Positions 6,695 through 30,138 of a stretch of 41,013 bases of DNA are shown piece by piece. Position 1 is the stretch's first letter; every line of letters begins with the position of its first letter. This DNA comes from Deltaproteobacteria bacterium (GTDB lineage Bacteria > Desulfobacterota > Desulfobulbia > Desulfobulbales > Desulfurivibrionaceae), in NCBI GenBank assembly GCA_021847425.1, contig JAJZRF010000026.1, positions 1-41,013 of the forward strand. Direction: 5' to 3'. The translations under genes were made by a program, and so were the position numbers. Below the pieces are notes generated by a model that worked only from the letters and a program-made list of their open reading frames with translations, did no database searches and was not told the DNA's origin.

Positions 6695-6714
6695 TTAGTT
6701 GACTAACTCGCCCC
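6673..6714 (+). repeat. 42-bp direct repeat, copy 2 (left end of the RAYT element)
   Basis: This is identical to 5010-5051. It ends 20 nt before the transposase start. Its GGGGACGTTGTTGATT core (6681-6696) is the inverted counterpart of AATCAACAACGTCCCC at 7711-7726 on the far side of the gene, giving the element terminal inverted repeats of at least 16 bp. Confidence 0.9.
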
Positions 6715-6734
6715 TGTCTGTTAAGTTCCTCCCT

Positions 6735-7730
6735 ATGCCACGCACCGCACGCATAGATATCCCGGGGTTGTTGCAGCACGTTATCGTTCGCGGTATCGAG
6801 CGGCGGGATATTTTTCTTGATGACGATGATCGCCACTTATTTCTGGAACGTCTCTCCAAACTCCTCTCCGAAACCCACACCGAATGCCTTGCCTGGGCGC
6901 TCACGTCCAATCACTTTCACCTGTTGCTCCGCCCACGGGAAACAAAGCTTTCCGTGTTCATGCGGCGGCTTTTGACCGGCTACGCGATTGTCTTTAACCT
7001 TCAGCACAAACGATCCGGCTATCTTTTTCAGAATCGCTACAAATCCATCGCCTGCCAGGAAGACAGCTATTTGCTTGAGCTGGTTCGCTACATCCATTTA
7101 AATCCATTGCGGGCGGGTCTGGTGAAAACGATTGACGAGCTGGATAGCTACCCGTGGTGTGGCCATGCGGTTCTCATGGGGCGCCGGGAATTGGACGGCC
7201 ACAAGGGTGATGAGGTCTTGCTGCTGTTTGATCGGAGCAAGAGAAGTGCCCGGCGGAAATACCGGGATTTCGTTATTGACGGCATCAAGAATGGACGACG
7301 GGATGATCTTGTCGGCGGCGGTTTGCGCCGGTCATTGGGCGTTTCTGGGGCAAGCGATCATGGAGCCTTTGATGAAAGGATCCTCGGCAGCGGTGAATTT
7401 GTGGAGAGCCTGTGGCGGAAGACGGAACCCAGCCAAATTTTCGGCCCCAGGATGACACTTACCGGGATAATACAAGGTGCGGCAGAGGTGTTTGGGGTAA
7501 GGGTGGAATTATTGCGCCAGAGGAACCGGGTAAAAGAACTTGCCGAGGCCCGGGCGGCGATATGTTACTTGGCCGTGAGGGAGTGCGGCATCAACGGGGT
7601 TGAGGTGGCCAGGGCGCTGAATTTGAGTCGTTCCGGGGTAAGTGTTGCGGCAAAGCGGGGCGGTGCAATTATAGCCGGGAACCCCGGGCTTAGGGGGAAG
7701 TTGGTCGACAAATCAACAACGTCCCCTTAA
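6735..7730 (+). CDS. REP-associated tyrosine transposase (Y1/HUH) with DnaA-like C-terminal domain
   Basis: This 331-residue Y1-type transposase is of the TnpA-REP family. The HUH motif is SNHFHLLLRP (H60, H62), preceded by the typical N-terminus MPRTARIDIPGLLQHVIVRG and followed by YLFQNRYKSI. LVRYIHLNPLRAGL (Y119) contains a candidate catalytic tyrosine. Residues from about 240 (LTGIIQGAAEVFGV to NGVEVARALNLSRSGVSVA) resemble the helix-turn-helix of the DnaA C-terminal domain, found in long RAYTs. The start at 6735 is chosen for the family N-terminus; an earlier start at 6699 would begin inside the repeat. The stop codon lies within the right-end repeat. It probably nicks single-stranded DNA at REP-like hairpins. 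Confidence 0.9.
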   Translation: MPRTARIDIPGLLQHVIVRGIERRDIFLDDDDRHLFLERLSKLLSETHTECLAWALTSNHFHLLLRPRETKLSVFMRRLLTGYAIVFNLQHKRSGYLFQNRYKSIACQEDSYLLELVRYIHLNPLRAGLVKTIDELDSYPWCGHAVLMGRRELDGHKGDEVLLLFDRSKRSARRKYRDFVIDGIKNGRRDDLVGGGLRRSLGVSGASDHGAFDERILGSGEFVESLWRKTEPSQIFGPRMTLTGIIQGAAEVFGVRVELLRQRNRVKELAEARAAICYLAVRECGINGVEVARALNLSRSGVSVAAKRGGAIIAGNPGLRGKLVDKSTTSP

Positions 7731-7763
7731 TGCTCCAAATCAACAACGTCCCCTTAATGCTCC
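7710..7763. repeat. Two tandem 27-bp repeats at the RAYT right end
   Basis: Two perfect copies (7710-7736 and 7737-7763) begin AAATCAACAACGTCCCCTTA. The first contains the transposase stop codon. Each carries the inverse of the left-end core. Tandem duplication of the end may reflect repeated strand transfer or replication slippage. Confidence 0.9.
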
Positions 7764-7952
7764 CGGCAAAAATTGAGCGGCAGGTTGGGATTTTTCCACT
7801 GGTATTACGCGAGCTATTGGGAAAAGATGGTGTGCGTTATTGTGCTGGCATCAGTTCTGTTGAGTCCCCTGGTGGCCATCTACGCCGCCGGGTTTACCGC
7901 CGCCTGCCTGTATACGAAAAGGGGATTGCCGGAACCGGTACGTAACGGTTGA
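7758..7952 (+). pseudogene. C-terminal fragment of an unknown membrane protein
   Basis: The frame is open from the edge of the RAYT right-end repeat to a TGA at 7950. It encodes GRLGFFHWYYASYWEK, then a hydrophobic helix (MVCVIVLASVLLSPLVAI and so on), and ends KRGLPEPVRNG. It has no start codon near its left boundary; the first ATG is at 7827. This looks like the 3' end of a membrane protein gene cut by the element. I do not recognise the family. It could also be a chance open frame. Confidence 0.4.
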
Positions 7953-8105
7953 AAAAGCACCTCCGCCGCTTCACAAGCGCAACCGCTCCCCGCCCTGCCC
8001 GCGATCAAAGCCCAAACACCATGACGAAGCGCCCACCCATTGGCTTATTTAAAATAACTTGCTATAATGGCCACATGTATACACTCAACCACAAAGAGGA
8101 ACGAC
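7953..8105 (+). promoter_or_regulatory. Promoter region of the RHH/ParE toxin-antitoxin operon
   Basis: A near-consensus sigma70 promoter is visible: TTGGCT (8040-8045), a 17-nt spacer and TATAAT (8063-8068), with the antitoxin ATG at 8106. TTATTTAAAATAA within the spacer and GTATAC at about 8077 are AT-rich near-palindromes that could be the RHH operator. The stretch 7953-8035 shows nothing else. Confidence 0.65.
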
Positions 8106-8375
8106 ATGAGCCAGACAGTATCCGTAAGACTGGATGATGACACGTTGAAACAGTTGGACATGATGGCAAAAACCGCCGACAGATCCAGGGCCTGGCTGAT
8201 GGCGCAGGCGGTAAAGCAATACGTGGCGCATGAGGCGTGGCAAATTGAGGCCATTCAGAAATCACTGGAAAAGCTGGAGAGCGGCGCCGCCAGGTTCGCT
8301 GACCACGACAAGGTAGCGCAGTGGCTTGCCTCTTGGGGGTCGGAGAATGAAAAGGAACAGCCAACATGCGGGTAA
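8106..8375 (+). CDS. Ribbon-helix-helix antitoxin (CopG/ParD-like)
   Basis: This 89-residue antitoxin has an N-terminal ribbon-helix-helix DNA-binding domain, MSQTVSVRLDDDTLKQLD followed by ADRSRAWLMAQAVKQYV. A helical linker and the toxin-binding C-terminal region (DHDKVAQWLASWGS) follow. The start at 8106 is preferred over an upstream in-frame ATG because AGAGGA lies 6 nt before it and MSQTVSVRLDD is the family N-terminus. The 3' end overlaps the toxin gene by 10 nt. It should neutralise the downstream ParE-like toxin and repress its own promoter. Confidence 0.9.
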   Translation: MSQTVSVRLDDDTLKQLDMMAKTADRSRAWLMAQAVKQYVAHEAWQIEAIQKSLEKLESGAARFADHDKVAQWLASWGSENEKEQPTCG

Positions 8376-8650
8376 GATGGGAGGAAGACGCGCTTTCCGA
8401 TCTGGTTGCCTTACGCAAATATATCGCCCAAGACAATCCTGCCGCCGCCCATAAGGTGGCCGAACGCATTTTAACATGCGTTGATCTCCTGGCCACGCAT
8501 CCATTGGCCGGGGAACCCGGTCGAATTCACAACACCAGAGAAATGGTGGTGAGCAAAACGCCGTATACCATTATTTATCACGCCACGGCGGAGCTGATAA
8601 CAATCTTGCGAGTATTCCACCAAGCCAGGAAATGGCCGGCAGAATCATAA
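8366..8650 (+). CDS. RelE/ParE-superfamily toxin
   Basis: This 94-residue toxin of the RelE/ParE superfamily has the ParE-like layout. It opens with MRVRWEEDALSDLVALRKYIAQ, continues with AAAHKVAERILTCVDLLATHP and the turn GEPGRIHNTREMVVSKTPY, and ends with TIIYHATAELITILRVFHQAR. The REMVVSKTPYTIIY to VFHQARKWP pattern is typical of the branch that targets gyrase or the ribosome; the exact target cannot be told. It overlaps its antitoxin by 10 nt and looks intact. Confidence 0.9.
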   Translation: MRVRWEEDALSDLVALRKYIAQDNPAAAHKVAERILTCVDLLATHPLAGEPGRIHNTREMVVSKTPYTIIYHATAELITILRVFHQARKWPAES

Positions 8651-8735
8651 CGGAACCGCGCGGATAGTGGTATCACGGGCTTCGTCGAGCCCACCTTCTT
8701 CGGGGCATGATACCGCCATGGAAATCTGCACCTAA

Positions 8736-8816
8736 GGCGCACCCCTTGCCTTTGCCGACATCATCGACCAAGCCAGGCGCATTGCCCAGGAATGGGAGGA
8801 GCGGAACCATGGCTGA
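8736..8816 (+). pseudogene. C-terminal remnant of a HigB-like toxin
   Basis: Just before the antitoxin at 8809 a short frame reads GAPLAFADIIDQARRIAQEW and then EERNHG-stop. Its TGA overlaps the antitoxin ATG (ATGGCTGA), exactly where the toxin of a toxin-first pair should end. The sequence resembles the C-terminal helix of small addiction-module killer proteins (AKRLAxEWKE type). An in-frame TAA at 8733 cuts it off, and no toxin body is recognisable further upstream. The toxin seems lost. Confidence 0.5.
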
Positions 8817-9099
8817 AAAATTTACCAAATACGACTCCGCGGAGTATCTGAAAACCGATGCGGACATGGCCGCCTACCTCGACGCCTGCCTTCAGGAGGC
8901 TGGCGACGACCCCGCTTTCATCGCCCATGCCTTGGGGGTGATTGCCCGCGCCCGTGGCATGTCCCAGCTTGCGCGGGACACCGGCCTGGCGCGGGAGAAC
9001 CTGTACAAAGCACTCTCCGCCGAAGGCAACCCGGAATTCGGCACCATCTTGAAGGTGGTCAAGGCGTTGGGCCTGAAGCTACACGCCGAGCCTGCCTGA
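8809..9099 (+). CDS. HigA-like addiction-module antidote protein (orphan)
   Basis: This 96-residue helix-turn-helix antidote is of the small XRE-like family that partners RelE-type killer proteins. It starts MAEKFTKYDSAEYLKTDADM and has the family middle AYLDACLQEAGDDPAFIAHA. A DNA-binding helix pair follows (ARARGMSQLARDTGLARENL), then GNPEFGTILKVVKALGLKL. GGAG lies 8-9 nt before the ATG. The expected upstream toxin gene is reduced to a remnant, so this is an orphan antitoxin. It may persist as a regulator or as an anti-addiction factor. Confidence 0.88.
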   Translation: MAEKFTKYDSAEYLKTDADMAAYLDACLQEAGDDPAFIAHALGVIARARGMSQLARDTGLARENLYKALSAEGNPEFGTILKVVKALGLKLHAEPA

Positions 9100-9330: not shown

Positions 9331-10650
9331 ATGGCATCCTTACTGACCTTCCCCAAAGGCGGTGTGCATCCGCCTGCATCAAAGGGCCTGACCGAGAACC
9401 TCGCCATCGAGGCAATGCCCGCGCCCGACGAGCTTGAGATTATTCTTGGCCAGCATATCGGCGCACCCTGCACCCCCACCGTCGCTCCCAAGGATGCAGT
9501 GCAGGAAGGCCAGGTCATCGGCGAGGTGACCAAGGGGCTCGGGGTTCCCCTCCATGCCCCGGTGGCCGGAACCGTCAAGAATCTCGGCATGTCCGGCCAC
9601 CCCATGCGCGTCAGCGCCCCATCCATTACCATCCAGACCAATAAGGAAGCAGCGCCGGTGCAGTATTCCCGCTGCGACTGGCAGAAGCTTGCCAAGGAAG
9701 AGCTCTTGGCCAAGGTGCATGCGGCCGGAATCATCGGTATTGGCGGCGCGGGCTTTCCCTCCCATGTGAAGCTTTCCCCTCCGCCGGACAACCCGGTGGA
9801 CACCCTGATCTTAAACGGCGCCGAATGCGAGCCGTACATCACCGCGGATCATCGCCAGATGCTGGAGCGCGCCCAGGAGATTGTCGAGGGCGCTCTGGTG
9901 ATCCTCAAGATCCTCGGGATCAAGAAGTGTTTCATCGGCATCGAGAACAACAAGCCCGACGCCATCAAGACCATGACTGCGGCGGTGGTGGCCGGTGCCA
10001 CCCCGGAACACACCATTATAGTGCAGCCCTTGCAGGTCAAGTATCCGCAGGGCTCGGAAAAACAGCTCATCCAAGCCATTACCGGGCGCAAGGTTCCCGG
10101 CTTCGCCCTGCCCTCGGCAGTGGGGGTGGTGGTTCATAATGTAAGCACCGCCAGGGCTATTTACGATGCGGTGGTGCTGTCCAAGCCCCTGTATGAGAAG
10201 GTGATGACCATCTCCGGCAAGGGGATCAAGCGGCCAGCCAATCTGCTGGTCAAGGTGGGCACCAGGGTAAGTGACATCGTGGAGTATCTTGGCGGGGTAA
10301 CGCCGGAGCTGTCCAAGATTGTCATGGGCGGGCCGATGATGGGCTTTGCCGTATCCTCCCTGGACATCCCGGTGACCAAGACCACCTCGTCGGTGCTTTT
10401 TCTCGCCGCAGATGAAATCGACATCACCCCGCACTCCCAGTGCATCCGCTGCGGCTGGTGCCTGGAGGCTTGTCCCATGGGGTTAGAGCCCAATGAGATC
10501 GCCATCCATGTGGAGGCGGGGAGGGCTCAGGATACCGGGCAGTTCGGGGTGTTCGAGTGCTTTGAGTGCGGCTGTTGCGCCTATGTCTGTCCGGCAAAAC
10601 GGCCCTTGGTCCAGTTCGTCCGGCTGGCCAAGATGAAGGCCAAGCGATAA
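9331..10650 (+). CDS. rnfC: Rnf complex subunit RnfC
   Basis: This 439-residue peripheral subunit of the Rnf ferredoxin:NAD+ oxidoreductase is related to the NADH-dehydrogenase flavoprotein NuoF. It is expected to carry the NAD(H) and FMN site. The glycine-rich loop GIGGAGFPSHVK (residues 136-147) and NGAECEPYITADHR (162-175) are the core nucleotide-site motifs. Two [4Fe-4S] ferredoxin motifs lie at C371/374/377/381 (CIRCGWCLEACP) and C410/413/416/420. The N-terminal FPKGGVHPP is the RnfC signature. It lacks the long alanine/lysine-rich C-terminal tail of enterobacterial RnfC. It is the first gene of rnfCDGEAB. The ATG has only a weak ribosome site. Confidence 0.96.
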   Translation: MASLLTFPKGGVHPPASKGLTENLAIEAMPAPDELEIILGQHIGAPCTPTVAPKDAVQEGQVIGEVTKGLGVPLHAPVAGTVKNLGMSGHPMRVSAPSITIQTNKEAAPVQYSRCDWQKLAKEELLAKVHAAGIIGIGGAGFPSHVKLSPPPDNPVDTLILNGAECEPYITADHRQMLERAQEIVEGALVILKILGIKKCFIGIENNKPDAIKTMTAAVVAGATPEHTIIVQPLQVKYPQGSEKQLIQAITGRKVPGFALPSAVGVVVHNVSTARAIYDAVVLSKPLYEKVMTISGKGIKRPANLLVKVGTRVSDIVEYLGGVTPELSKIVMGGPMMGFAVSSLDIPVTKTTSSVLFLAADEIDITPHSQCIRCGWCLEACPMGLEPNEIAIHVEAGRAQDTGQFGVFECFECGCCAYVCPAKRPLVQFVRLAKMKAKR

Positions 10651-10658
10651 AAGGGAGA

Positions 10659-10792
10659 AACGCAAAGACGCAGAGGCGCAGGTGACGGGAATAATAAAAC
10701 GAGGGAATCTCGGTTAAGGTTGCCGTTACGGTCTCACTGACTACTTTTAAGTTGTGTAAGGTTTTTTATTTGCGCCTCTGCGTCTTTGCGTT
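10659..10792. repeat. Inverted-repeat element in the rnfC-rnfD gap
   Basis: Perfect 22-bp arms lie at 10659-10680 and 10771-10792. The left arm begins AACGCAAAGACGCAGAGGC and the right arm is its exact reverse complement. They enclose about 90 bp with no gene. A degraded relative with the same CGCAAAG-CGCAGAG core lies at 14541-14632 between rnfA and rnfB, so this is a repeat family rather than a local hairpin. Transcribed as part of the operon it would form a long stem. Confidence 0.9.
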
Positions 10793-10844
10793 AAGCAGTT
10801 TAATCTGCAAAGTGCGGAAGGTTTTAGAACGAAGGAGACCGGCC

Positions 10845-11954
10845 ATTAACGAGCACGCTTCAGATAAAGCTGAGTTGAGCAGCTCGCCTGCTCAAACGAA
10901 ACTTATACCCTCTGGGTGTAACCAGTCACCCGTTACACCACAGGGGTTGTGGAAGGTTTCCGTTTCCCCCCATGTGAAGAGCGGCGAGTCGGTTGCAAAA
11001 ATCATGTGGACGGTGGTGGCCTGCCTGGTGCCGCCCCTGGTCCTTTCCGTATTCATCTTCGGCATTCAGACCCTGATTATCACCGCGGTCAGCGTGGCGA
11101 GCTGCGTGGCGGTTGAGGCCGCAACCCAGAAGGCCTTGGGCCGCAGGATTACCATCGGGGACGGCAGCGCGGTGATCACCGGCATGCTGATTGCCTTTGT
11201 CATCCCGCCCGGAGTGTCGCCGCTGCTGCCGGTGCTGGGCGCGGTTATGGCCATCGCCATCGGCAAGCATCTGCTGGGCGGGATCGGCTACAACATTTTC
11301 AACCCGGCGCTTCTGGGCCGGGCTTTTCTCATGGCCACCTTCCCGGTGGCCATGACCTCGGCCTGGCTGCCGCCCCTGCACGACATGGCGATTTTTAAGT
11401 ATCTGGGCACGCACATCGACGCCGTTGCCACGGCTACCCCCCTGGCAGTGCTGAAAACCCAAGGGATGGCCGCCTTCAGCGAACAGTTCGGCACCGCAGC
11501 CAACGTCTATACCCATTTCTTTCTCGGCTGGCGGCCCGGCTGCATCGGCGAGACCTCCGGGTTGCTGATCGTGTTGGGCGGGCTCTATCTGCTCTATCGC
11601 GGCTACATTACCTGGCATATTCCGTTTACGGTTATAGGGACCATCGGGTTGCTTTCCTGGTGTTTCGGCGGCGAGACCCTGTTTTCCGGCGACCCGTTGC
11701 TGGCTGTCCTTTCCGGCGGTGCCTTGCTTGGGGCCTTTTTCATGGCCAACGACTATGTCACCTGCCCCACCAACAAGACCTCCCAGCTTATTTACGGGGT
11801 CGGCGTGGGGGCGCTCACCGTGCTCATCCGGCTGAAAGGCGGCTATCCCGAGGGAGTTTGCTATGCCATCCTGCTCATGAATCCGCTGAGCCCGGTATTG
11901 GACGGATTTTTCAAGCCCAAGCGCTTTGCGCCTCTCCAGGGAGGGGCAAAATGA
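10845..11954 (+). CDS. rnfD: Rnf complex membrane subunit RnfD (start uncertain)
   Basis: RnfD is the integral membrane flavoprotein homologous to NqrB. It has about ten membrane segments and probably carries covalent FMN. The conserved body begins KVSVSPHVKSGESVAKIM, at about 10950. The covalent-FMN region is HIDAVATATPLAVLK (Thr codon at 11436), a loose version of the DxxSGAT signal read by ApbE. The start is unclear. AAGGAG at about 10832 is spaced for an ATT codon at 10845, adding a low-complexity 34-residue leader. TTG at 10947 directly before the conserved part has no good ribosome site. No in-frame ATG exists near either. The 3' end overlaps rnfG by 4 nt. The gene identity is firm; the N-terminus is not. 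Confidence 0.93.
   Translation: MNEHASDKAELSSSPAQTKLIPSGCNQSPVTPQGLWKVSVSPHVKSGESVAKIMWTVVACLVPPLVLSVFIFGIQTLIITAVSVASCVAVEAATQKALGRRITIGDGSAVITGMLIAFVIPPGVSPLLPVLGAVMAIAIGKHLLGGIGYNIFNPALLGRAFLMATFPVAMTSAWLPPLHDMAIFKYLGTHIDAVATATPLAVLKTQGMAAFSEQFGTAANVYTHFFLGWRPGCIGETSGLLIVLGGLYLLYRGYITWHIPFTVIGTIGLLSWCFGGETLFSGDPLLAVLSGGALLGAFFMANDYVTCPTNKTSQLIYGVGVGALTVLIRLKGGYPEGVCYAILLMNPLSPVLDGFFKPKRFAPLQGGAK
10876..10946 (+). promoter_or_regulatory. Two consecutive hairpins at the 5' end of rnfD
   Basis: TGAGCAG (10876-10882) pairs with CTGCTCA (10888-10894). A second stem joins CCCTCTGGGTGTAAC (10908-10922) to GTTACACCACAGGGG (10932-10946) with an 8-bp perfect core and one bulge. The second stem ends at the base before the TTG at 10947. 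If that TTG is the real start, the hairpin would mask the initiation region. If translation starts upstream, both stems lie inside coding sequence. No T-tract follows. Confidence 0.55.
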
Positions 11955-12850
11955 AAAATATCCTTACCATCATCTTCCGGCTGACGGTGGCCTGCCTGCT
12001 GGCCGGGCTGGTCATGGGCACCGCCTTTGTCTTCACCAACAAGGCGAAGAAGCACAATCTGCATGTCAATGAACAGAAGGTCATGCTCAGCCTCCTGGGA
12101 TATTCGGCAAAGAACCCCGCCCCGGCAAGCGTGGCCATGCACGAGGTCTACCGCTACATCGTCAGCCAGGGCGACGTTCTGACCACGGGCTATCTCCTGC
12201 CCCTGCGGGATGGCTCCTTTTCCTTTGTGACCATTGATCTGACGGGCGCGTTCGTGGCCCGCTATCCCGTGGCGATTTCCGCGGAAAAGGCGGTTGAGGC
12301 CGACGAGCGCAGTCAGGCGATTGCAGCCGCCATCGGCGCGGGCAAGACCATCCGTTACGCCGACCAGACCATCGTGGTCACCGACGGCGGCAAGAGAACG
12401 GCCTATCTGCTGCCTGGCAGGTTCCCCGGCTTCAAGACCTTCATCAGCGCGATGCTGGCCCTGGACAAGAACTGCACCATTCTGGGCCTGGAGATCATGG
12501 AAAACGAGGAAGATCCCGGTCTGGGAGGGGAGATAGTGCAGGACTATTTCAAAAACCAGTTCAAGGGCAAGCCGCTTGACACCGTCAAAAAACTTGAGGT
12601 TGTAAAAACGCCCCTGCCGGAGGAGTACCGCAAGGCATTGGAGGCAGGCAAGCGCGGGCAGATGGGGGCGGCGGAGGTGGCCAGCATCGAGGAGCAATAC
12701 AAGGACCACGATATCTATGCCCTCACCGGGGCAACCATCTCAAGCCGTTCCGTGACCAGCGGGGTCAAGGGGATGGTCAAAAAATTCGCCTACCGGTTGG
12801 CGATTCTTGACCGGGTTCTTGCCGAACAGCATATCGCGGTCCCTTTTTAG
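11951..12850 (+). CDS. rnfG: Rnf complex subunit RnfG (covalent FMN protein)
   Basis: This 299-residue periplasm-facing flavoprotein has one N-terminal membrane anchor (residues 6-29). The FMN-binding domain shows EDPGLGGEI (188-196) and the attachment motif LTGATISSRSV, with Thr262 as the expected phosphoester site. The residue three before the T-G-A-T is Tyr rather than the usual Asp. A segment around residues 110-155 makes the protein longer than common RnfG proteins. The ATG overlaps the rnfD stop (ATGA), so translation is coupled. The encoded ApbE downstream should flavinylate this protein and RnfD. Confidence 0.95.
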   Translation: MKNILTIIFRLTVACLLAGLVMGTAFVFTNKAKKHNLHVNEQKVMLSLLGYSAKNPAPASVAMHEVYRYIVSQGDVLTTGYLLPLRDGSFSFVTIDLTGAFVARYPVAISAEKAVEADERSQAIAAAIGAGKTIRYADQTIVVTDGGKRTAYLLPGRFPGFKTFISAMLALDKNCTILGLEIMENEEDPGLGGEIVQDYFKNQFKGKPLDTVKKLEVVKTPLPEEYRKALEAGKRGQMGAAEVASIEEQYKDHDIYALTGATISSRSVTSGVKGMVKKFAYRLAILDRVLAEQHIAVPF

Positions 12851-12896: not shown

Positions 12897-12955
12897 GTTA
12901 ACGCATTTATCCCGTTTATCGGGGTTAGGCGACGCTTTTCTCGGAGAATGTGACA

Positions 12956-13570
12956 GTGGCGACTGACAAAACAAACCTGCAACTGGTGGTCAACGGAATC
13001 CTGAACGAGAACCCCATTTTCCGGCTGGTGCTTTCCATGTGCCCGGCAGTGGGAATCAGCACCACGGTGATGAACGGCTTCATGCTGGGGATTGCCGTGC
13101 TCTTCGTTCAGGTCTGTTCGAGCTGCACCATTTCCCTGTTCAAGAACGTCATCCATCCCCGGATCCGGATTCCAACCTACACCCTGACCATCGCCACCTG
13201 GGTGACGGTCATCGACATGGTCCTGGCCGCCTACCTGCCCGAGGCCTACGCCAAGATGGGCATCTTCATCAAGCTCATCGTCGCCTTTGCCATCATCACC
13301 ATGCGCTTGGAGATGTTCGCCTGCAAGGAGAGCGTCAATGCCTCGTTCTGGGACGGCATCGGCATGGGCTTGGGTTTCATGTTCGGCATGATGGCCCTGG
13401 GCTTTGTCCGGGAGCTGCTGGGCATGGGCACCATCCTGGGCTACGACGTGCTGGGCTTCAAGCCGCTGCTCTTTTTCGTGCTCCCCTTTGCCGGGTTCTT
13501 CTGCGTCGGCCTGATGATGGCCTTTTTCAACTATATCGAGATCGTCTACAAACGAGCGAAACGGGCCTGA
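12956..13570 (+). CDS. rnfE: Rnf complex membrane subunit RnfE
   Basis: This integral membrane subunit of about 204 residues is homologous to NqrD, with six predicted membrane helices. With RnfA it forms the pseudo-symmetric core that holds a [2Fe-2S] cluster in the membrane. The conserved cysteines are visible as C29 (LSMCPAVG) and C123 (EMFACKES). The GTG at 12956 is preferred because GGAG lies 9 nt upstream; another GTG at 12950 has only 3 nt of spacing. It is followed by rnfA after 3 nt. It is full length and well conserved. Confidence 0.95.
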   Translation: MATDKTNLQLVVNGILNENPIFRLVLSMCPAVGISTTVMNGFMLGIAVLFVQVCSSCTISLFKNVIHPRIRIPTYTLTIATWVTVIDMVLAAYLPEAYAKMGIFIKLIVAFAIITMRLEMFACKESVNASFWDGIGMGLGFMFGMMALGFVRELLGMGTILGYDVLGFKPLLFFVLPFAGFFCVGLMMAFFNYIEIVYKRAKRA

Positions 13571-13573
13571 ACC

Positions 13574-14521
13574 ATGAAAACTTCCACCATGAAACGGATA
13601 GTGCTGTTGCTCGCTGTTGTCCTTGCCCTGCCGGTTCTGGCGCAGGCCCAGGAGCTGATTGCCGGAAAGTCCTTCGGCAAGGCCAAAAACGAGATCGTCG
13701 TGACCTTTGCCGGGGATGTGGACCGCGCCACGGTTGAGAACCCGGCAAACTACCGGGTCTACGAGGAGCAGGATCCGGACATCAAGCTGGATCTGGTGCG
13801 CGTGGCCCTTGCCCCTGATCAGAAAACCGCCACCCTGACCTTCAAGGAGCCGCTCAACACCCGGGTGCCGCATGTGGTCTCCATCAGCCACCTCAGCGAA
13901 AGCGGGGCTGCGGCAACCTTCAAGGTGATGAAGCCCTACCTCGGCTACCTGTTTTCCATTCTGGTCAGCGCGCTCTTGATCAACAACTTTGTCTTCACCA
14001 AGTATCTGGGGCTCTGTGTCTTTTTCGGCACCTCCAAGCGCAAGGACACGGCCAAGGGCATGGGGTTTACCTTCACCATGGTCATGGTGGTGAGCGCCAT
14101 CATGAGCTGGTTTTTCTACCAGTTCATCCTCAAGCCCTATGGTCTGAACTTCCTGCAGATCGTGGTCTTTATCGGCCTGGTTTCCCTTACCGTGCAGGCG
14201 GTGGACACGGTGCTGCGCAAGGTGAATCCTGCCTTGTTCAACGCCTTTGGCGTGTATCTGGTCCTGGTCATCGCCAACTGCGTGATCATCGCGGTGCCGC
14301 TGATCCTGGCGGACAACGAATACAATTTTCTGGAGTCCTTCATGCTTGCCCTGGGGGCAGGCGGCGGCTTCCTTCTGGCCCTGTATCTGATGAGCTCGGT
14401 GCGGGAGAGGATGGAGCTGGCCAATATCCCGGCGACCTTCAAGGGCGTGCCCATCGCCTTTATTGTCGCCGGACAGTTTGCCCTGGCGTTTCTTGGCTTC
14501 TCCGGGCTGACTCTTTTTTAG
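13574..14521 (+). CDS. rnfA: RnfA with N-terminal signal peptide and Ig-like domain
   Basis: This 315-residue protein is about 120 residues longer than ordinary RnfA (about 190). Residues 119-315 are canonical RnfA: MKPYLGYLFSILVSALLINN, C148 in LGLCVFFG and C236 in VIANCVII, the expected ligands of the [2Fe-2S] cluster shared with RnfE. Residues 1-26 form a signal peptide (MKRIVLLLAVVLALPVLAQA). Residues about 32-115 resemble an SbsA/CopC-type Ig-like beta domain: NEIVVTFAGDVDRATVENPA, NYRVYE, KTATLTF and HVVSISHLSESGA. The frame is unbroken and no ribosome site favours the inner ATG at 13928. The extension should face the periplasm. Its function is unknown; docking of a periplasmic redox or structural partner is a guess. 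Confidence 0.92.
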   Translation: MKTSTMKRIVLLLAVVLALPVLAQAQELIAGKSFGKAKNEIVVTFAGDVDRATVENPANYRVYEEQDPDIKLDLVRVALAPDQKTATLTFKEPLNTRVPHVVSISHLSESGAAATFKVMKPYLGYLFSILVSALLINNFVFTKYLGLCVFFGTSKRKDTAKGMGFTFTMVMVVSAIMSWFFYQFILKPYGLNFLQIVVFIGLVSLTVQAVDTVLRKVNPALFNAFGVYLVLVIANCVIIAVPLILADNEYNFLESFMLALGAGGGFLLALYLMSSVRERMELANIPATFKGVPIAFIVAGQFALAFLGFSGLTLF

Positions 14522-14540: not shown

Positions 14541-14632
14541 AACGCAACGGCGCAAAGTCGCAGAGTTGTAGCAGTGTTAAGGGCAAGCCCTTATTTTTGA
14601 AGGTTATCTTCGCGTCTCTGCGTCTTTGCGTT
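14541..14632. repeat. Degraded copy of the CGCAAAG inverted-repeat element, rnfA-rnfB gap
   Basis: CGCAAAGTCGCAGAG (14551-14565) faces CTCTGCGTCTTTGCG (14616-14630) with one mismatch. Between them lies AAGGGCAAGCCCTT (14579-14592), a small perfect hairpin. GCCGTTG and CAACGGC (14524-14530, 14545-14551) add a third pairing. The arms match those of 10659-10792, so it is a second copy of the same element in the operon. The 155-bp rnfA-rnfB gap holds no gene. Confidence 0.8.
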
Positions 14633-14676
14633 AGATTTTTTTTAGTTATTCCCTTGTATATGGGAAAGGTGTGGAA

Positions 14677-15549
14677 ATGGATCCAGCATTAGTCAAACTC
14701 GCCTTGGGCGGCATCGCCCTTTTGGGCTGCATCGGCCTCTTCTTCGGCATAGGCCTTGCCTTGGCGGCGCATCGGTTTGCGGTTGAGGCAAACCCTCTGA
14801 TTGAAGAGGTCTTGGAGTCCCTGGCCGGAGCTCAGTGCGGCGGTTGCGGTTATCCGGGTTGCGAGGGGTATGCCATTGCGGTGGTCACCAACCCCGAGGT
14901 GCCGCCCAATCTCTGTTTTCCCGGCAAGGAAAAGGTGGCCGAACGGGTGGCCCAGCTCACCGGCAAGAAGATGACCGCGGTTGAAGATATGATCGCCCTT
15001 GTCCGCTGCTCCCGCAAGGAAGGAAGGGTCAGCCACAAGCACGAGTACATCGGCTTTGCCTCCTGCACCGCGGCCAACCTCGGCTTCGGCGGCCCTTCGG
15101 CCTGCAATTACGCCTGCATCGGCCTCGGGGAATGCGCCGAGAGCTGCCCCTTTGACGCCATTGCCATGGTGGATGGCTTTCCGGTGGTGAATCCCGACAA
15201 GTGCGTGGCCTGCGGCACCTGCGTCCGGGCCTGCCCCAAACGGATCATCGAGCTCATGACCCTCAAGGCCAGGGTGCATGTGCCTTGCTCCACCAAGGAT
15301 CTGGGCAAGAATGTCAAAAAGGTGTGCGAGGTCGGCTGCATCTCCTGCCAGATGTGCGTGAAGAAATGTCCGGCTCAAGCCATTGCCTATGTGGACGGCC
15401 TGATCAAGATTGATCATCCGAAATGCATTGCCTATGGCCCGGAGTGCGGCGAGATCTGTGTGGAAAAATGCCCCCGCAATATCATGCGGAAATATAAGGG
15501 CAGGGCAGCCATTGCCCGGCAGGCGGAAGGGTTGAAGATGGCATCCTAG
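14677..15549 (+). CDS. rnfB: Rnf complex ferredoxin subunit RnfB
   Basis: This 290-residue polyferredoxin probably accepts electrons from ferredoxin. An N-terminal membrane helix (residues 8-30) is followed by the Fes-type cluster motif CGGCGYPGC with C54/57/62/80. Further cysteine groups lie at 143-157 (CIGLGECAESCP), 176-186 (CVACGTCVRACP), 221-231 (CISCQMCVKKCP) and 250-265. This gives about five potential clusters, more than the enterobacterial form. The ATG at 14677 is chosen over a GTG six bases upstream by family N-terminus. It is the last rnf gene and is followed by apbE after 75 nt. Confidence 0.95.
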   Translation: MDPALVKLALGGIALLGCIGLFFGIGLALAAHRFAVEANPLIEEVLESLAGAQCGGCGYPGCEGYAIAVVTNPEVPPNLCFPGKEKVAERVAQLTGKKMTAVEDMIALVRCSRKEGRVSHKHEYIGFASCTAANLGFGGPSACNYACIGLGECAESCPFDAIAMVDGFPVVNPDKCVACGTCVRACPKRIIELMTLKARVHVPCSTKDLGKNVKKVCEVGCISCQMCVKKCPAQAIAYVDGLIKIDHPKCIAYGPECGEICVEKCPRNIMRKYKGRAAIARQAEGLKMAS

Positions 15550-15624: not shown

Positions 15625-16680
15625 ATGAAGATGAAGTCAACCATGCCGCACCCGTCCAGTCAGCAGAGAAGAAATTTTTTAAAGCTCTCCGGCCTTCTTG
15701 GTCTCGGTGCGGCCTCTGCCGCCCTGCTGCCCACGCCCCATGCGGAGGCGCTTCTCTTTGGCCCCAAGGAATACAAGGTTTCCGAGACCAGGCTGTCCAT
15801 GGGTTCTTTTTTGGCTATTACCGCCTTTCATCCCTCCAGGGACGAGGCGCAGCATGCCATCGGGCTTGCCTGGGAGGAGATCGCCCGGCTGTGCAAGCTG
15901 CTCAGCCGTCACGACCCCTCCACCCCGCTTTCCCAGCTTAACCGGACCGGCACCCTGCCCGAGGGCCAGATGGAAGTGGTGGAGGTGGTGGCCCGTTCGC
16001 TCTACCATCACAAGCAGACCGGCGGAGCCTTTGACATCACGGTCCAGCCCGTGCTCGACCTGTATGAGAAACGATTTGCCGCCGGGCGTCGGCCGACCGA
16101 CGCGGAGATCACCGCGCTCTTGCCCCGGGTTGGCTCGGAGCACATCCGTTTTGCCAAAGGCGGGGTTTCCTTTGCCAGGGAGGGGATGGGCATCACCCTT
16201 GATGCCCTTGCGCCTGGCTACATCGTTGACCGGGCTTCCGAACTCCTGACCCGCAACGGGGTGGTCAACCATCTCGTCAATTGCAGCGGCGATATCCGCA
16301 CCAGCGGGGCGGCGGCCAAGGGCACGCCCTGGACTGTGGCCATCCAGGACCCGGCCAAGAAAAAAGCCTATCCCGAGGTGGTCAGCATGGGCACCGGCGC
16401 CATCTGTACCTCCGGTGACTACGAAGCCTTCTATGACAAGGAAAAGATCTTCCACCACATTGTCAATGGCCGCACCGGCCATTCTCCGGCATATTCCACC
16501 AGCGTCACGGTCAAGGGACCGTTGTCGGTGATGGACGCCGACGCCATGTCCACCGCGCTTTTTGTCATGTCGCCGGCCGAGGGCCTCGCCTTTGTCAACC
16601 GCCGGCCCGATCTCGAATGCTTTCTGATCGACCATCAGGGCGATTTTGAGAAATCCGCGAACTGGAGCAAGCTCGCCTGA
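15625..16680 (+). CDS. apbE: FAD:protein FMN transferase ApbE
   Basis: This 351-residue ApbE should attach FMN covalently to threonines of RnfG and RnfD. A twin-arginine signal (QQRRNFLKLSGLLGLGAA, residues 13-30) indicates Tat export of a folded protein to the periplasm. The body carries family motifs: MGSFLAITAF, LSRHDPSTPLSQLNRTG, GGAFDITVQPVL, ITLDALAPGYIVDRA, NCSGDIRTSG, and the late HHIVNGRTGHSP and MDADAMSTALFV (metal and flavin sites). GAGGGAG lies 5-6 nt before the ATG. Its place at the end of the rnf operon matches other Rnf loci. A terminator follows at 16707. Confidence 0.95.
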   Translation: MKMKSTMPHPSSQQRRNFLKLSGLLGLGAASAALLPTPHAEALLFGPKEYKVSETRLSMGSFLAITAFHPSRDEAQHAIGLAWEEIARLCKLLSRHDPSTPLSQLNRTGTLPEGQMEVVEVVARSLYHHKQTGGAFDITVQPVLDLYEKRFAAGRRPTDAEITALLPRVGSEHIRFAKGGVSFAREGMGITLDALAPGYIVDRASELLTRNGVVNHLVNCSGDIRTSGAAAKGTPWTVAIQDPAKKKAYPEVVSMGTGAICTSGDYEAFYDKEKIFHHIVNGRTGHSPAYSTSVTVKGPLSVMDADAMSTALFVMSPAEGLAFVNRRPDLECFLIDHQGDFEKSANWSKLA

Positions 16681-28374: not shown

Positions 28375-30138
28375 TCATTTGTTCTCGTCAAACACAGGGC
28401 ATTTCCGCTCCGGGGTATAATCTCGATACACCTTGTCGCTGTAATCCTTATGGCAGGGCAGGCATTGTCCCACCCGCAGGATGCGGGCCAGCTCCCCCTT
28501 GTTGAAGGGGCGCAGGTCGGCTCGGCCGCTTTTCTGCAGCGGCTTGCCGTTGATGTCCACATAGCCGTCCAGGGGCGGGGTGGGGCCGGCCTGGGTGGCA
28601 AGGCCCTGGTCAACCCCGCTGAAACGCCATTGGCCCTTTTCCTTCCAGGCCGTGCCCTCGCCCAAGCCCATGGTTTTGGTGGAGGTGTGGCAGTCGACGC
28701 AGGTGCGGCCTGCTTTCTGGGTGGTGTGCGGGCTGAGGGCCGCCATGGTCAGCGAGTTGAAGGAGCCCGCCGGTTTGCCCTGTTTGTCGATCAGGGTAAC
28801 GATGTCCTGGCAGCCTGGGGTGACGGTGACGATTTTGTCCTTCCAGACCGCCAGCATGGGCCGCTCGTAACGGAGATAGGAGCGGCCTTCTTCCCACCAG
28901 CCCGGGGTTTCCTTGCCGGTCAGCTTGTCCAGGTGGGTCTCCCGCATATCCCGCTTGGCGTGGCAGCCGTAGCACTGGGGAATCCAGCTGGAATGGCAGG
29001 ATTCGCAGCCCATGCGCTTGTGGCCTTGGTAGTCGCAGATCCCGGATTTGGGCGGGTTTACGGGAAGTTTTTTGCCGGTGAGCTTTTCGGTGAGGAGATA
29101 GCGGCCGTCCGGTGCCTGTTCCAGGTTGTTCAGCATATTCTTCTTTCTGGTGAGTCCGGGCTTGCCGTCCTTGGGATTTATGTGGCAAACGGTGCAGGAG
29201 ATCTCCAGGGATTGCTCGTAATGGGCGTGGTTTTCGCCGTCGCCCATGATCTCGTTACGGGTGTGGCAGTCGATGCAGGCCATGCCCTTCTGGTGGTGGA
29301 TGTCCGGGGAGAGATCGAGGTAAAAGCGGTCGCCGGGCAGCTCTTTTTTGGACGGGCCGCCTTTTTCGTAGGGGGTGCCGTAGTTTTCGCCCTCGTAGAC
29401 GCCGATGAAGGAGGTCCCCACCCGGCCGCTCCGGTTATGGCAGCGGATGCAGTTTTCCATGGGCACCTTTTTGATGATGAGCGGATGCGGTTTTTTCTTG
29501 GCCTGGCCGAACCGGAGAAAGGTTTCCCAGGGTCTGGTCGCGGTGGGGGCCTGGGGCCTGATGTAATGGCAGGCGGTGCAGCCCCCGCCCTTCTCGCCGA
29601 AAAACCCCGGCATGTCGCCCTTTTGCTTCCAGAGATGGCAGGTGGCGCAGAGCTTGCGATAGTAGTCGATGGCCAGCGAGGTCTTGCCGGTTTTGTTCAG
29701 CTCCTCCACGGAGAAATTGCCGTACTGGTTCGGAGCCTCGCCCCAGTAGTAGAGCAGGGTGGAGAGTATCCCCCGGTTGGTGGCCATGAGCGAGTTTTTC
29801 ACCCTTTTGACATCCTGGGCGTGGCAACCCTCGACCCCGCAGGTTTTTTCCACCACCCGCAGGTCGCCGGGATTCTTGACGATGCCCTGGTGGGCTGTTT
29901 TTTTGTCGATGGCGAGCGGGTTGCCGAGATGGCAGGGCGAACAGCCCATCACCTCGCGGCCGTGGGCCGGGTCGAGTTTCTCGTCCTTATGGCAGGAGAG
30001 GCACATCTCCACCTGGCCATTGGTCAGCTGGTAGAGTTTGTCCGGTCTTTTGGTCAGGTTCTCGCGGATCACCAGGGCCAGCACCACCAGGAGCAGGCAG
30101 AGGATGGTGGCGCGCGGGGAAAATAAGGAACGTTTCAT
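28375..30138 (-). CDS. Membrane-anchored twelve-haem cytochrome c
   Basis: This 587-residue periplasmic multihaem protein is held by an N-terminal membrane helix (about residues 10-27) with no obvious cleavage site. Eleven CXXCH motifs are visible in order: CLSCH, CSPCH, CATCH, CTACH, CIRCH, CIDCH, CTVCH, CESCH, CYGCH, CVDCH and CLPCH. One further site, CGVEGCH, has the expanded CX4CH spacing, as in some cytochromes c3. Several single histidines could be distal ligands. The family resembles multihaem electron carriers of sulphate and metal reducers that connect the quinone pool or periplasmic carriers to other acceptors. The start overlaps the nadE stop by 4 nt (ATGA). The partner is unknown. 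Confidence 0.9.
   Translation of the reverse strand: MKRSLFSPRATILCLLLVVLALVIRENLTKRPDKLYQLTNGQVEMCLSCHKDEKLDPAHGREVMGCSPCHLGNPLAIDKKTAHQGIVKNPGDLRVVEKTCGVEGCHAQDVKRVKNSLMATNRGILSTLLYYWGEAPNQYGNFSVEELNKTGKTSLAIDYYRKLCATCHLWKQKGDMPGFFGEKGGGCTACHYIRPQAPTATRPWETFLRFGQAKKKPHPLIIKKVPMENCIRCHNRSGRVGTSFIGVYEGENYGTPYEKGGPSKKELPGDRFYLDLSPDIHHQKGMACIDCHTRNEIMGDGENHAHYEQSLEISCTVCHINPKDGKPGLTRKKNMLNNLEQAPDGRYLLTEKLTGKKLPVNPPKSGICDYQGHKRMGCESCHSSWIPQCYGCHAKRDMRETHLDKLTGKETPGWWEEGRSYLRYERPMLAVWKDKIVTVTPGCQDIVTLIDKQGKPAGSFNSLTMAALSPHTTQKAGRTCVDCHTSTKTMGLGEGTAWKEKGQWRFSGVDQGLATQAGPTPPLDGYVDINGKPLQKSGRADLRPFNKGELARILRVGQCLPCHKDYSDKVYRDYTPERKCPVFDENK

Follow-up and report, generated by a model that had tools for sequence, protein, structure and literature searches.

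The window, i.e., the whole 41,013-nucleotide stretch of DNA analyzed here, is contig C18 of a 2.7-Mb host assembly that is 81% complete, and it carries a full Rnf gene set on the forward strand in the order rnfC, D, G, E, A, B, apbE. The features of this operon, with RnfA divided into its three parts, are as follows:

9331..10650 (+): RnfC, 439 aa, with NADH/FMN and 4Fe-4S domains (TIGR01945, 513.4 bits; Complex1_51K)
10752..11954 (+): RnfD, start uncertain, family match from ~10965 (TIGR01946, 317.1 bits)
11951..12850 (+): RnfG, enlarged, 299 residues, with the FMN threonine motif TGAT (profiles, model, and spacing count)
12950..13570 (+): RnfE, 206 aa (PF02508 and RnfE models)
13574..13651 (+): RnfA signal peptide, residues 1-26, SPase I type, with the cut between AQA and QE judged by eye
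13652..13927 (+): RnfA Ig-like (Big_5/S-layer/CopC-type) putative periplasmic domain, residues 27-118 (profiles and predicted fold)
13928..14521 (+): RnfA core including the stop codon, an Rnf-Nqr membrane protein whose cluster cysteines are C148 and C236 (PF02508, TIGR01943)
14671..15549 (+): RnfB, 292 aa, of the small multi-4Fe-4S type (NF005503, 441.8 bits)
15625..16680 (+): ApbE, FAD:protein FMN transferase (PF02424, 4.9e-68)

The rnfA gene (13574-14521) is a single uninterrupted frame of 315 codons that starts three bases behind the stop of rnfE, and its translation comprises a signal peptide, a predicted Ig-like domain of ~90 residues, and then a complete RnfA core. The earlier note on this DNA had described an unbroken frame of this kind and pointed to the stretches NEIVVTFAGDVD, NPANYRVYEE, and KTATLTF, all of which were present in the translation; the signal peptide that it reported is plain in the sequence, with a basic start, a hydrophobic core, and an AQA site, and such a core was found in all 77 aligned homologues. 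PF02508 matched the window's RnfA from residue 126-127 onward (1.7e-45; 155.6 bits against a cut-off of 23.8), and TIGR01943 was the best subfamily model (1.3e-59), although its 201.8 bits lie below the curated cut-off of 229.3; the NqrE model gave 137.5 bits. C148 was conserved in 77 and C236 in 76 of the 77 aligned rows, so the ligands of the membrane cluster are present. The core fold is like that of the solved RnfA chains of Acetobacterium woodii (9eri), Clostridium tetanomorphum (7zc6), and Azotobacter vinelandii (8ahx), with Foldseek identities of 37-44%, and the paired cluster cysteines and the operon partners C, D, G, E, and B of the solved complexes likewise occur in the window. However, the solved chains are 189-191 residues long and have neither a signal peptide nor an extra domain, whereas the window's RnfA has 315 residues. 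Since PF02508 matched only two proteins in the host assembly (this RnfA and its RnfE), this is the sole Rnf/Nqr complex seen there. Membership in the Na+-NQR family was rejected because RnfC (513.4 bits) and RnfB (441.8 bits) are encoded instead of NqrA and NqrF. Judging from the domains of RnfB and RnfC, the chemistry should be the usual ferredoxin:NAD+ transfer with ion pumping, and ApbE likely flavinylates RnfG and RnfD.

We performed a whole-protein search of 97 near genomes (its own included). Matches were obtained in 54, and 38 of these carried the full fusion, with matches that start no later than residue 13 and extend through the C-terminus; the remaining matches were split over two contigs (G013), covered residues 150-315 only (G002), or comprised the membrane core only (14 genomes). 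In an independent named collection, the pattern EExDPDI[RK]L identified 64 relatives, and RnfA followed the Ig domain in frame at 63 of these 64 loci, the exception (L095) being one in which the contig end falls inside the Ig domain; loci of this collection and of the other genomes come partly from the same genome, so these are not species counts. Carriers in the collection included the complete genome of Desulfopila sp. IMCC35008 and the DSM strains of Desulfopila aestuarii, Desulfofustis glycolicus, Desulfoprunum benzoelyticum, and Desulfobulbus elongatus. With the same frame at 63 of 64 named loci, a closed genome and DSM isolates among them, an assembly or frame error was rejected. As for the possibility, raised earlier, that the domain is a separate protein in relatives, no stand-alone Ig domain was seen among relatives with this one peptide pattern, 64 of whose 85 stretches were confirmed relatives.

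We also determined dN/dS between the window and 12 relatives. In all 12 pairs, values for the Ig part were 0.20-0.40, as compared to 0.03-0.09 for the core and 0.26-0.99 for the signal peptide, i.e., the Ig part behaves as a coding sequence under purifying selection. A start at the inner ATG (13928), with the upstream part not made, had been named as a possible refutation; this ATG does exist in the window and is closely preceded by AAGG, and a clear ribosome-binding site is likewise lacking at the outer start (13574), although rnfE ends three bases before it. However, the gap between the AAGG and the inner ATG is a mere two bases, the extension is under purifying selection, and the region that begins 12 codons ahead of the Ig/core junction and ends 6 codons beyond it contains no ATG in 61 of 77 aligned Ig-RnfA homologues and no ATG, GTG, or TTG in 21 of them, so that an inner start cannot be general and the chance that the extension is an artefact is negligible.

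A tree of 64 RnfA cores, obtained from 127 distinct cores by thinning at 90% identity, placed all 25 Ig rows in one clade (98/97) on a long stem, with a bare RnfA of the same order, L155, as its sister (100/100). L027 and L054 had dropped out of the set of RnfA proteins, as RnfE gave the higher score in the frame that holds both subunits, and L033 and L047 were left out as partial matches. Across the phylum, 148 of 395 genomes had a match to the RnfA model at E <= 1e-30, and 13 (its own included) had the Ig domain; five of these 13 (G196, G319, G359, G432, and G450) also had a bare RnfA above the model cut-off, and G070, from the nearer sample, had both Ig and bare rnf operons. When the same 395 genomes were searched with L155, the 13 matches at 55-64% identity, among the matches listed, were the 13 Ig genomes, with the matches standing in frames of 316-363 codons, and a break followed, the next matches listed being at <=49% identity. 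In a second order, that around G359, the Ig domain was found in 29 of 85 genomes (frames of 314-403 codons). Outside Desulfobacterota, the search covered 299 genomes of the phylum of G476 and gave two matches, G476 itself and a weak one in a 1647-residue frame. By these sequence comparisons, the Ig domain marks a distinct Rnf lineage ("Ig-Rnf") in Desulfobulbales and other Desulfobacterota groups, and Ig-RnfA occurs in many sulfur-cycling bacteria. Ig-type rnf operons were also seen in two MAGs labelled Gammaproteobacteria/Proteobacteria (L069 and L084), where they are nested in the desulfobacterial clade and represent either horizontal transfer or mislabelled bins.

The SbsA/CopC-type Ig-like fold that had been proposed for the extension is weakly indicated by the window's sequence alone, and became firmer with profiles of the homologues and with a predicted model. 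PF13205 (Big_5) matched the window at E = 0.0069 and 17.5 bits (range 13.9-17.6), below the Pfam cut-off of 23.6; it also matched 43 of 59 homologous domains at E <= 1, the best at 8.4e-6. A profile built from the homologous domains and searched against the PDB matched the S-layer proteins Sap (7.3e-5) and SbsC (0.003). An AlphaFold2 model of RnfA based on 77 sequences had a mean pLDDT of 77.7, with middling confidence in the membrane part and blocks of 82-92 forming eight strands for residues 31-120. Foldseek with this model returned RnfA and NqrE chains first, followed by SbsC (8.4e-6), Sap (1.7e-5), and CopC (2.3e-4). Residues 27-118 are therefore predicted to form an Ig-like beta-sandwich. 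The best-conserved stretch is E64-x-x-D67-P68-D69-I70, within Y-x-V-x-E-E-x-D-P-D-I-x-L, with P68, D69, and I70 invariant in 77 rows, E64 present in 76, and D67 in 74. Thus, the domain resembles the Big_5/S-layer Ig domains of SbsC and Sap, as well as CopC, in predicted fold and sequence profile, but it sits on a polytopic subunit of a redox pump and has its own conserved EExDPDI stretch.

The Foldseek matches also included 9c14, the CopC domain of YcnJ. YcnJ is a CopC-CopD fusion and, like Ig-RnfA, places an exported CopC-like Ig domain before a multi-helix membrane protein; however, CopD is not known to be an Rnf protein. CopC binds copper through an N-terminal His and a D-x-H pair. A metal site of the CopC kind, by which the domain would sense or load copper or another metal, could be argued from these structural matches and from the CopC model, which weakly matched 6 of 59 domains (best 0.023). 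However, the CopC ligands are missing from the RnfA domain, with D-x-H occurring in the corresponding stretch of only 1 of 77 homologues and any His near the mature N-terminus in 14 of 77; a CopC-type copper site was rejected, which also sets the domain apart from YcnJ, and a metal site of this kind is very improbable.

The periplasmic side that the earlier note had assigned to the extension agrees with the distribution of charge in the core. Loops after RnfA helices 1-5 contain 5, 1, 2, 0, and 3 basic residues, and the more basic loops after helices 1, 3, and 5 would, by the positive-inside rule, put the RnfA N-terminus outside. Furthermore, 8 of 77 homologues have a lipobox cysteine instead of an AxA site at the end of the signal (nine pattern hits, of which L071 was judged false by eye), which fits an N-terminus processed at the outer side of the membrane. 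These lipoprotein-type signals belong to L098, L099, L100, L101, L102, L104, L086, and L088; the window's own signal has no lipobox cysteine at its cleavage site. A signal peptide, in places with a lipobox, is unusual on a polytopic pump subunit. Taken together, the sequences argue strongly for an Ig domain lying in the periplasm, whether or not the signal is cut, and we regard it as nearly certain that the fusion is real and that its Ig domain is periplasmic. In the genome shared by L027 and L054, a single frame (L054:676-2289, forward strand) encodes RnfE, a linker, a signal segment, the Ig domain, and RnfA, amounting to 538 residues counted from the RnfE start. It may be an RnfE-RnfA fusion or a sequencing error, and it fits an N-in/C-in RnfE followed by one membrane crossing.

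A second difference, beyond what the earlier note had described, lies in RnfG. The spacing between its membrane helix and TGAT was 241-258 residues in 62 Ig loci versus 147-172 in 25 bare loci, ranges that do not overlap, so that RnfG of Ig operons is ~90 residues longer. The sister locus L155 gave 172, and four more bare RnfG read by hand gave 154-168 (L158, 159; L161, 162). Only complete RnfG proteins in which TGAT was found were counted; 47 rows were left out (L071, L086, L147, and L154 without the motif, L061 with a broken frame, and 42 cut by the locus edge), and in 36 loci, 30 of them the short loci L110-L139 and two others the hand-read L158 and L161, the count had located no RnfG. The window's RnfG, at 299 residues, has the features of the NqrC/RnfG shuttle, namely the covalent FMN motif TGAT, a single membrane helix, and an FMN_bind domain, but differs from the bare type by the ~90 additional residues between the helix and the FMN site. 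In its predicted model (mean pLDDT 90.0), extra beta strands lie between the membrane helix and the FMN domain; the best fold match was NqrC (2.3e-7), followed by RnfG (5.0e-6), and the protein scored below both NCBIfam cut-offs (RnfG, 57.6 bits versus 102; NqrC, 61.7 versus 144). The divergence is thus lineage-wide, with RnfA below its curated cut-off and RnfG ~90 residues longer. Since the Ig domain and the long RnfG may have arisen in one event on one stem branch, their co-occurrence counts once.

In Rnf and Nqr complexes described so far, RnfG makes a large movement to pass electrons between RnfD and the iron-sulfur cluster of RnfA/E (PMC12174285, PMC11889175), the RnfA N-terminal helix shows structural differences near RnfG (PMC9588780), and the movement of RnfG and its coupling to ion pumping are still debated, with several mechanisms compared (PMC12174285). 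By analogy with these complexes, RnfG is the nearest known moving partner on the periplasmic face, and an Ig domain at the RnfA N-terminus would flank the path of the shuttle. We propose the following. The Sec signal peptide would direct export, placing the Ig domain in the periplasm ahead of the six RnfA helices, the first of which would start at the outer face. Fixed at the RnfA N-terminus, the Ig domain would stand beside the path of the mobile RnfG head. As a scaffold, it would guide or limit the travel of that head between RnfD and the RnfA/E cluster, and it may do so by touching either RnfD or the extra portion of RnfG. We hold this role in the RnfG/RnfD shuttle step tentatively, at somewhat short of an even chance, and consider an Ig-Rnf lineage with an exported RnfA scaffold by RnfG the best overall explanation, with the balance about even. 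In a distance-covariation (mirror-tree) analysis of 40 operons (three of 43 were left out), the partial correlation between the Ig domain and the RnfG insert was 0.08, giving no specific support; each was most strongly correlated with RnfD (0.34 and 0.39, respectively), and the pairs are not independent. Since no specific Ig-RnfG link emerged from covariation, the contact with RnfG, and the mechanism as a whole, are what we infer.

A further possibility, which the earlier note had put forward, is that the Ig domain is a docking site for another periplasmic protein. Candidates would be a cytochrome or a different redox carrier. Ig-like folds frequently serve in contacts between proteins, and a multihaem c-type cytochrome with 11 CxxCH in frame is encoded elsewhere in the window (28375-30138, reverse strand). 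However, when cytochrome genes were mapped against the two operon types, as the earlier note had suggested, a multihaem cytochrome gene (at least three CxxCH motifs, on the strand of the operon, and no more than 1.5 kb before or 2.5 kb after it) adjoined only 1 of 50 Ig operons versus 9 of 25 bare operons, the bare operons being partly hand-picked and the nine mainly of one Rnf type. Cytochrome docking is therefore not favored, and since the other 16 bare operons also have no adjoining multihaem cytochrome, the comparison proves no alternative. The gene comparison covered the rnf subunits, apbE, and DUF3786, and the extra partners sought were cytochromes. The docking of a separate partner thus found no support in the gene neighborhoods searched for cytochromes, and we consider it decidedly unlikely.

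A role in biogenesis survives somewhat better. The signal and Ig domain might serve chiefly to send an N-out protein through Sec and stabilize the first helix or the RnfA/E dimer, with no part in catalysis. Consistent with this, the rate of evolution is several times higher in the Ig domain than in the core, as expected of a loosely bound domain, which also speaks against a scaffold; both SPase I and lipoprotein signal types occur among the homologues; and the single frame of L027/L054 would keep the topology. However, bare RnfA, including that of the sister L155, presumably inserts without a signal or an Ig domain, the EExDPDI stretch is conserved beyond the need of a mere spacer, and RnfG is enlarged in the same operons, all of which make an aid to biogenesis alone unlikely. 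Returning to the scaffold beside RnfG, a more far-reaching version is that Desulfobacterota have a third kind of Rnf in which the exported Ig domain of RnfA serves an enlarged, NqrC-like RnfG as a rail or a gate; we regard this as conceivable, albeit doubtful, and the same caution applies to the idea that the domain is lipid-anchored in some species. If true, a periplasmic electron-transfer step would be under a structural control not seen in solved Rnf/Nqr complexes. A natural Rnf with a fixed periplasmic RnfA domain beside a larger RnfG would also offer a handle on the RnfG shuttle step.

Genome G252, which we take to be Desulfococcus multivorans, has bare RnfA in both of its rnf operons, with short-type RnfG (spacing 168 and 154), and Ig-RnfA was not found in the published D. 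multivorans proteome. According to the excerpted description of that species, its Rnf1 is of the A. woodii type and its Rnf2 of the D. toluolica type, with an RnfB of ~700 residues and a cytochrome (PMC5109826). It belongs to the same phylum and has the same subunits, and the window's RnfB is small as in Rnf1; however, the Ig type matches neither Rnf type as described in that excerpt. Literature searches for RnfA with a signal peptide and N-terminal extension, and for NqrE with an N-terminal extension, found no description, nor did a search for RnfA with an Ig-like domain in the text that it covered. Excerpts of PMC4014512 and PMC11334425 make no mention of Ig-RnfA, and the wider Rnf literature, judged mostly by titles and abstract openings, describes none, which agrees, at that depth, with the earlier statement that no Rnf subunit with such a domain was known. 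In a survey, the legend of a supplementary figure, the part of the source used here, gives Rnf as absent from Desulfobulbales (PMC10553843). The Ig-RnfA loci of the Desulfobulbales isolates Desulfopila aestuarii, Desulfobulbus elongatus, and Desulfofustis glycolicus contradict this legend, and the Ig-type variant may have been overlooked. The Ig-type Rnf is a new variant of Rnf; the observation that led to it was confirmed, and its interpretation was partly supported.

Several minor observations were made in the course of this work. Six bare rnf operons (L141, L143, L145, L153, L174, and L175) have a gene for a cytochrome of 4-5 haems just ahead of rnfC, and the RnfB frames are 685-719 residues long in L141, L143, L145, and L153 and 715 in L175. 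Upstream of the window's operon are a REP-associated transposase-like gene (6699-7730, forward strand) and two small genes (8067-8650 and 8707-9099, forward strand) that resemble toxin-antitoxin genes, names that we presume to apply to this region (6699-9099). Within the operon, an inverted intergenic repeat (AACGCAAAGACGCAGAGGCGC) lies ahead of rnfD (10646-10680 / 10771-10805), and a related copy is found between rnfA and rnfB (14604-14633).
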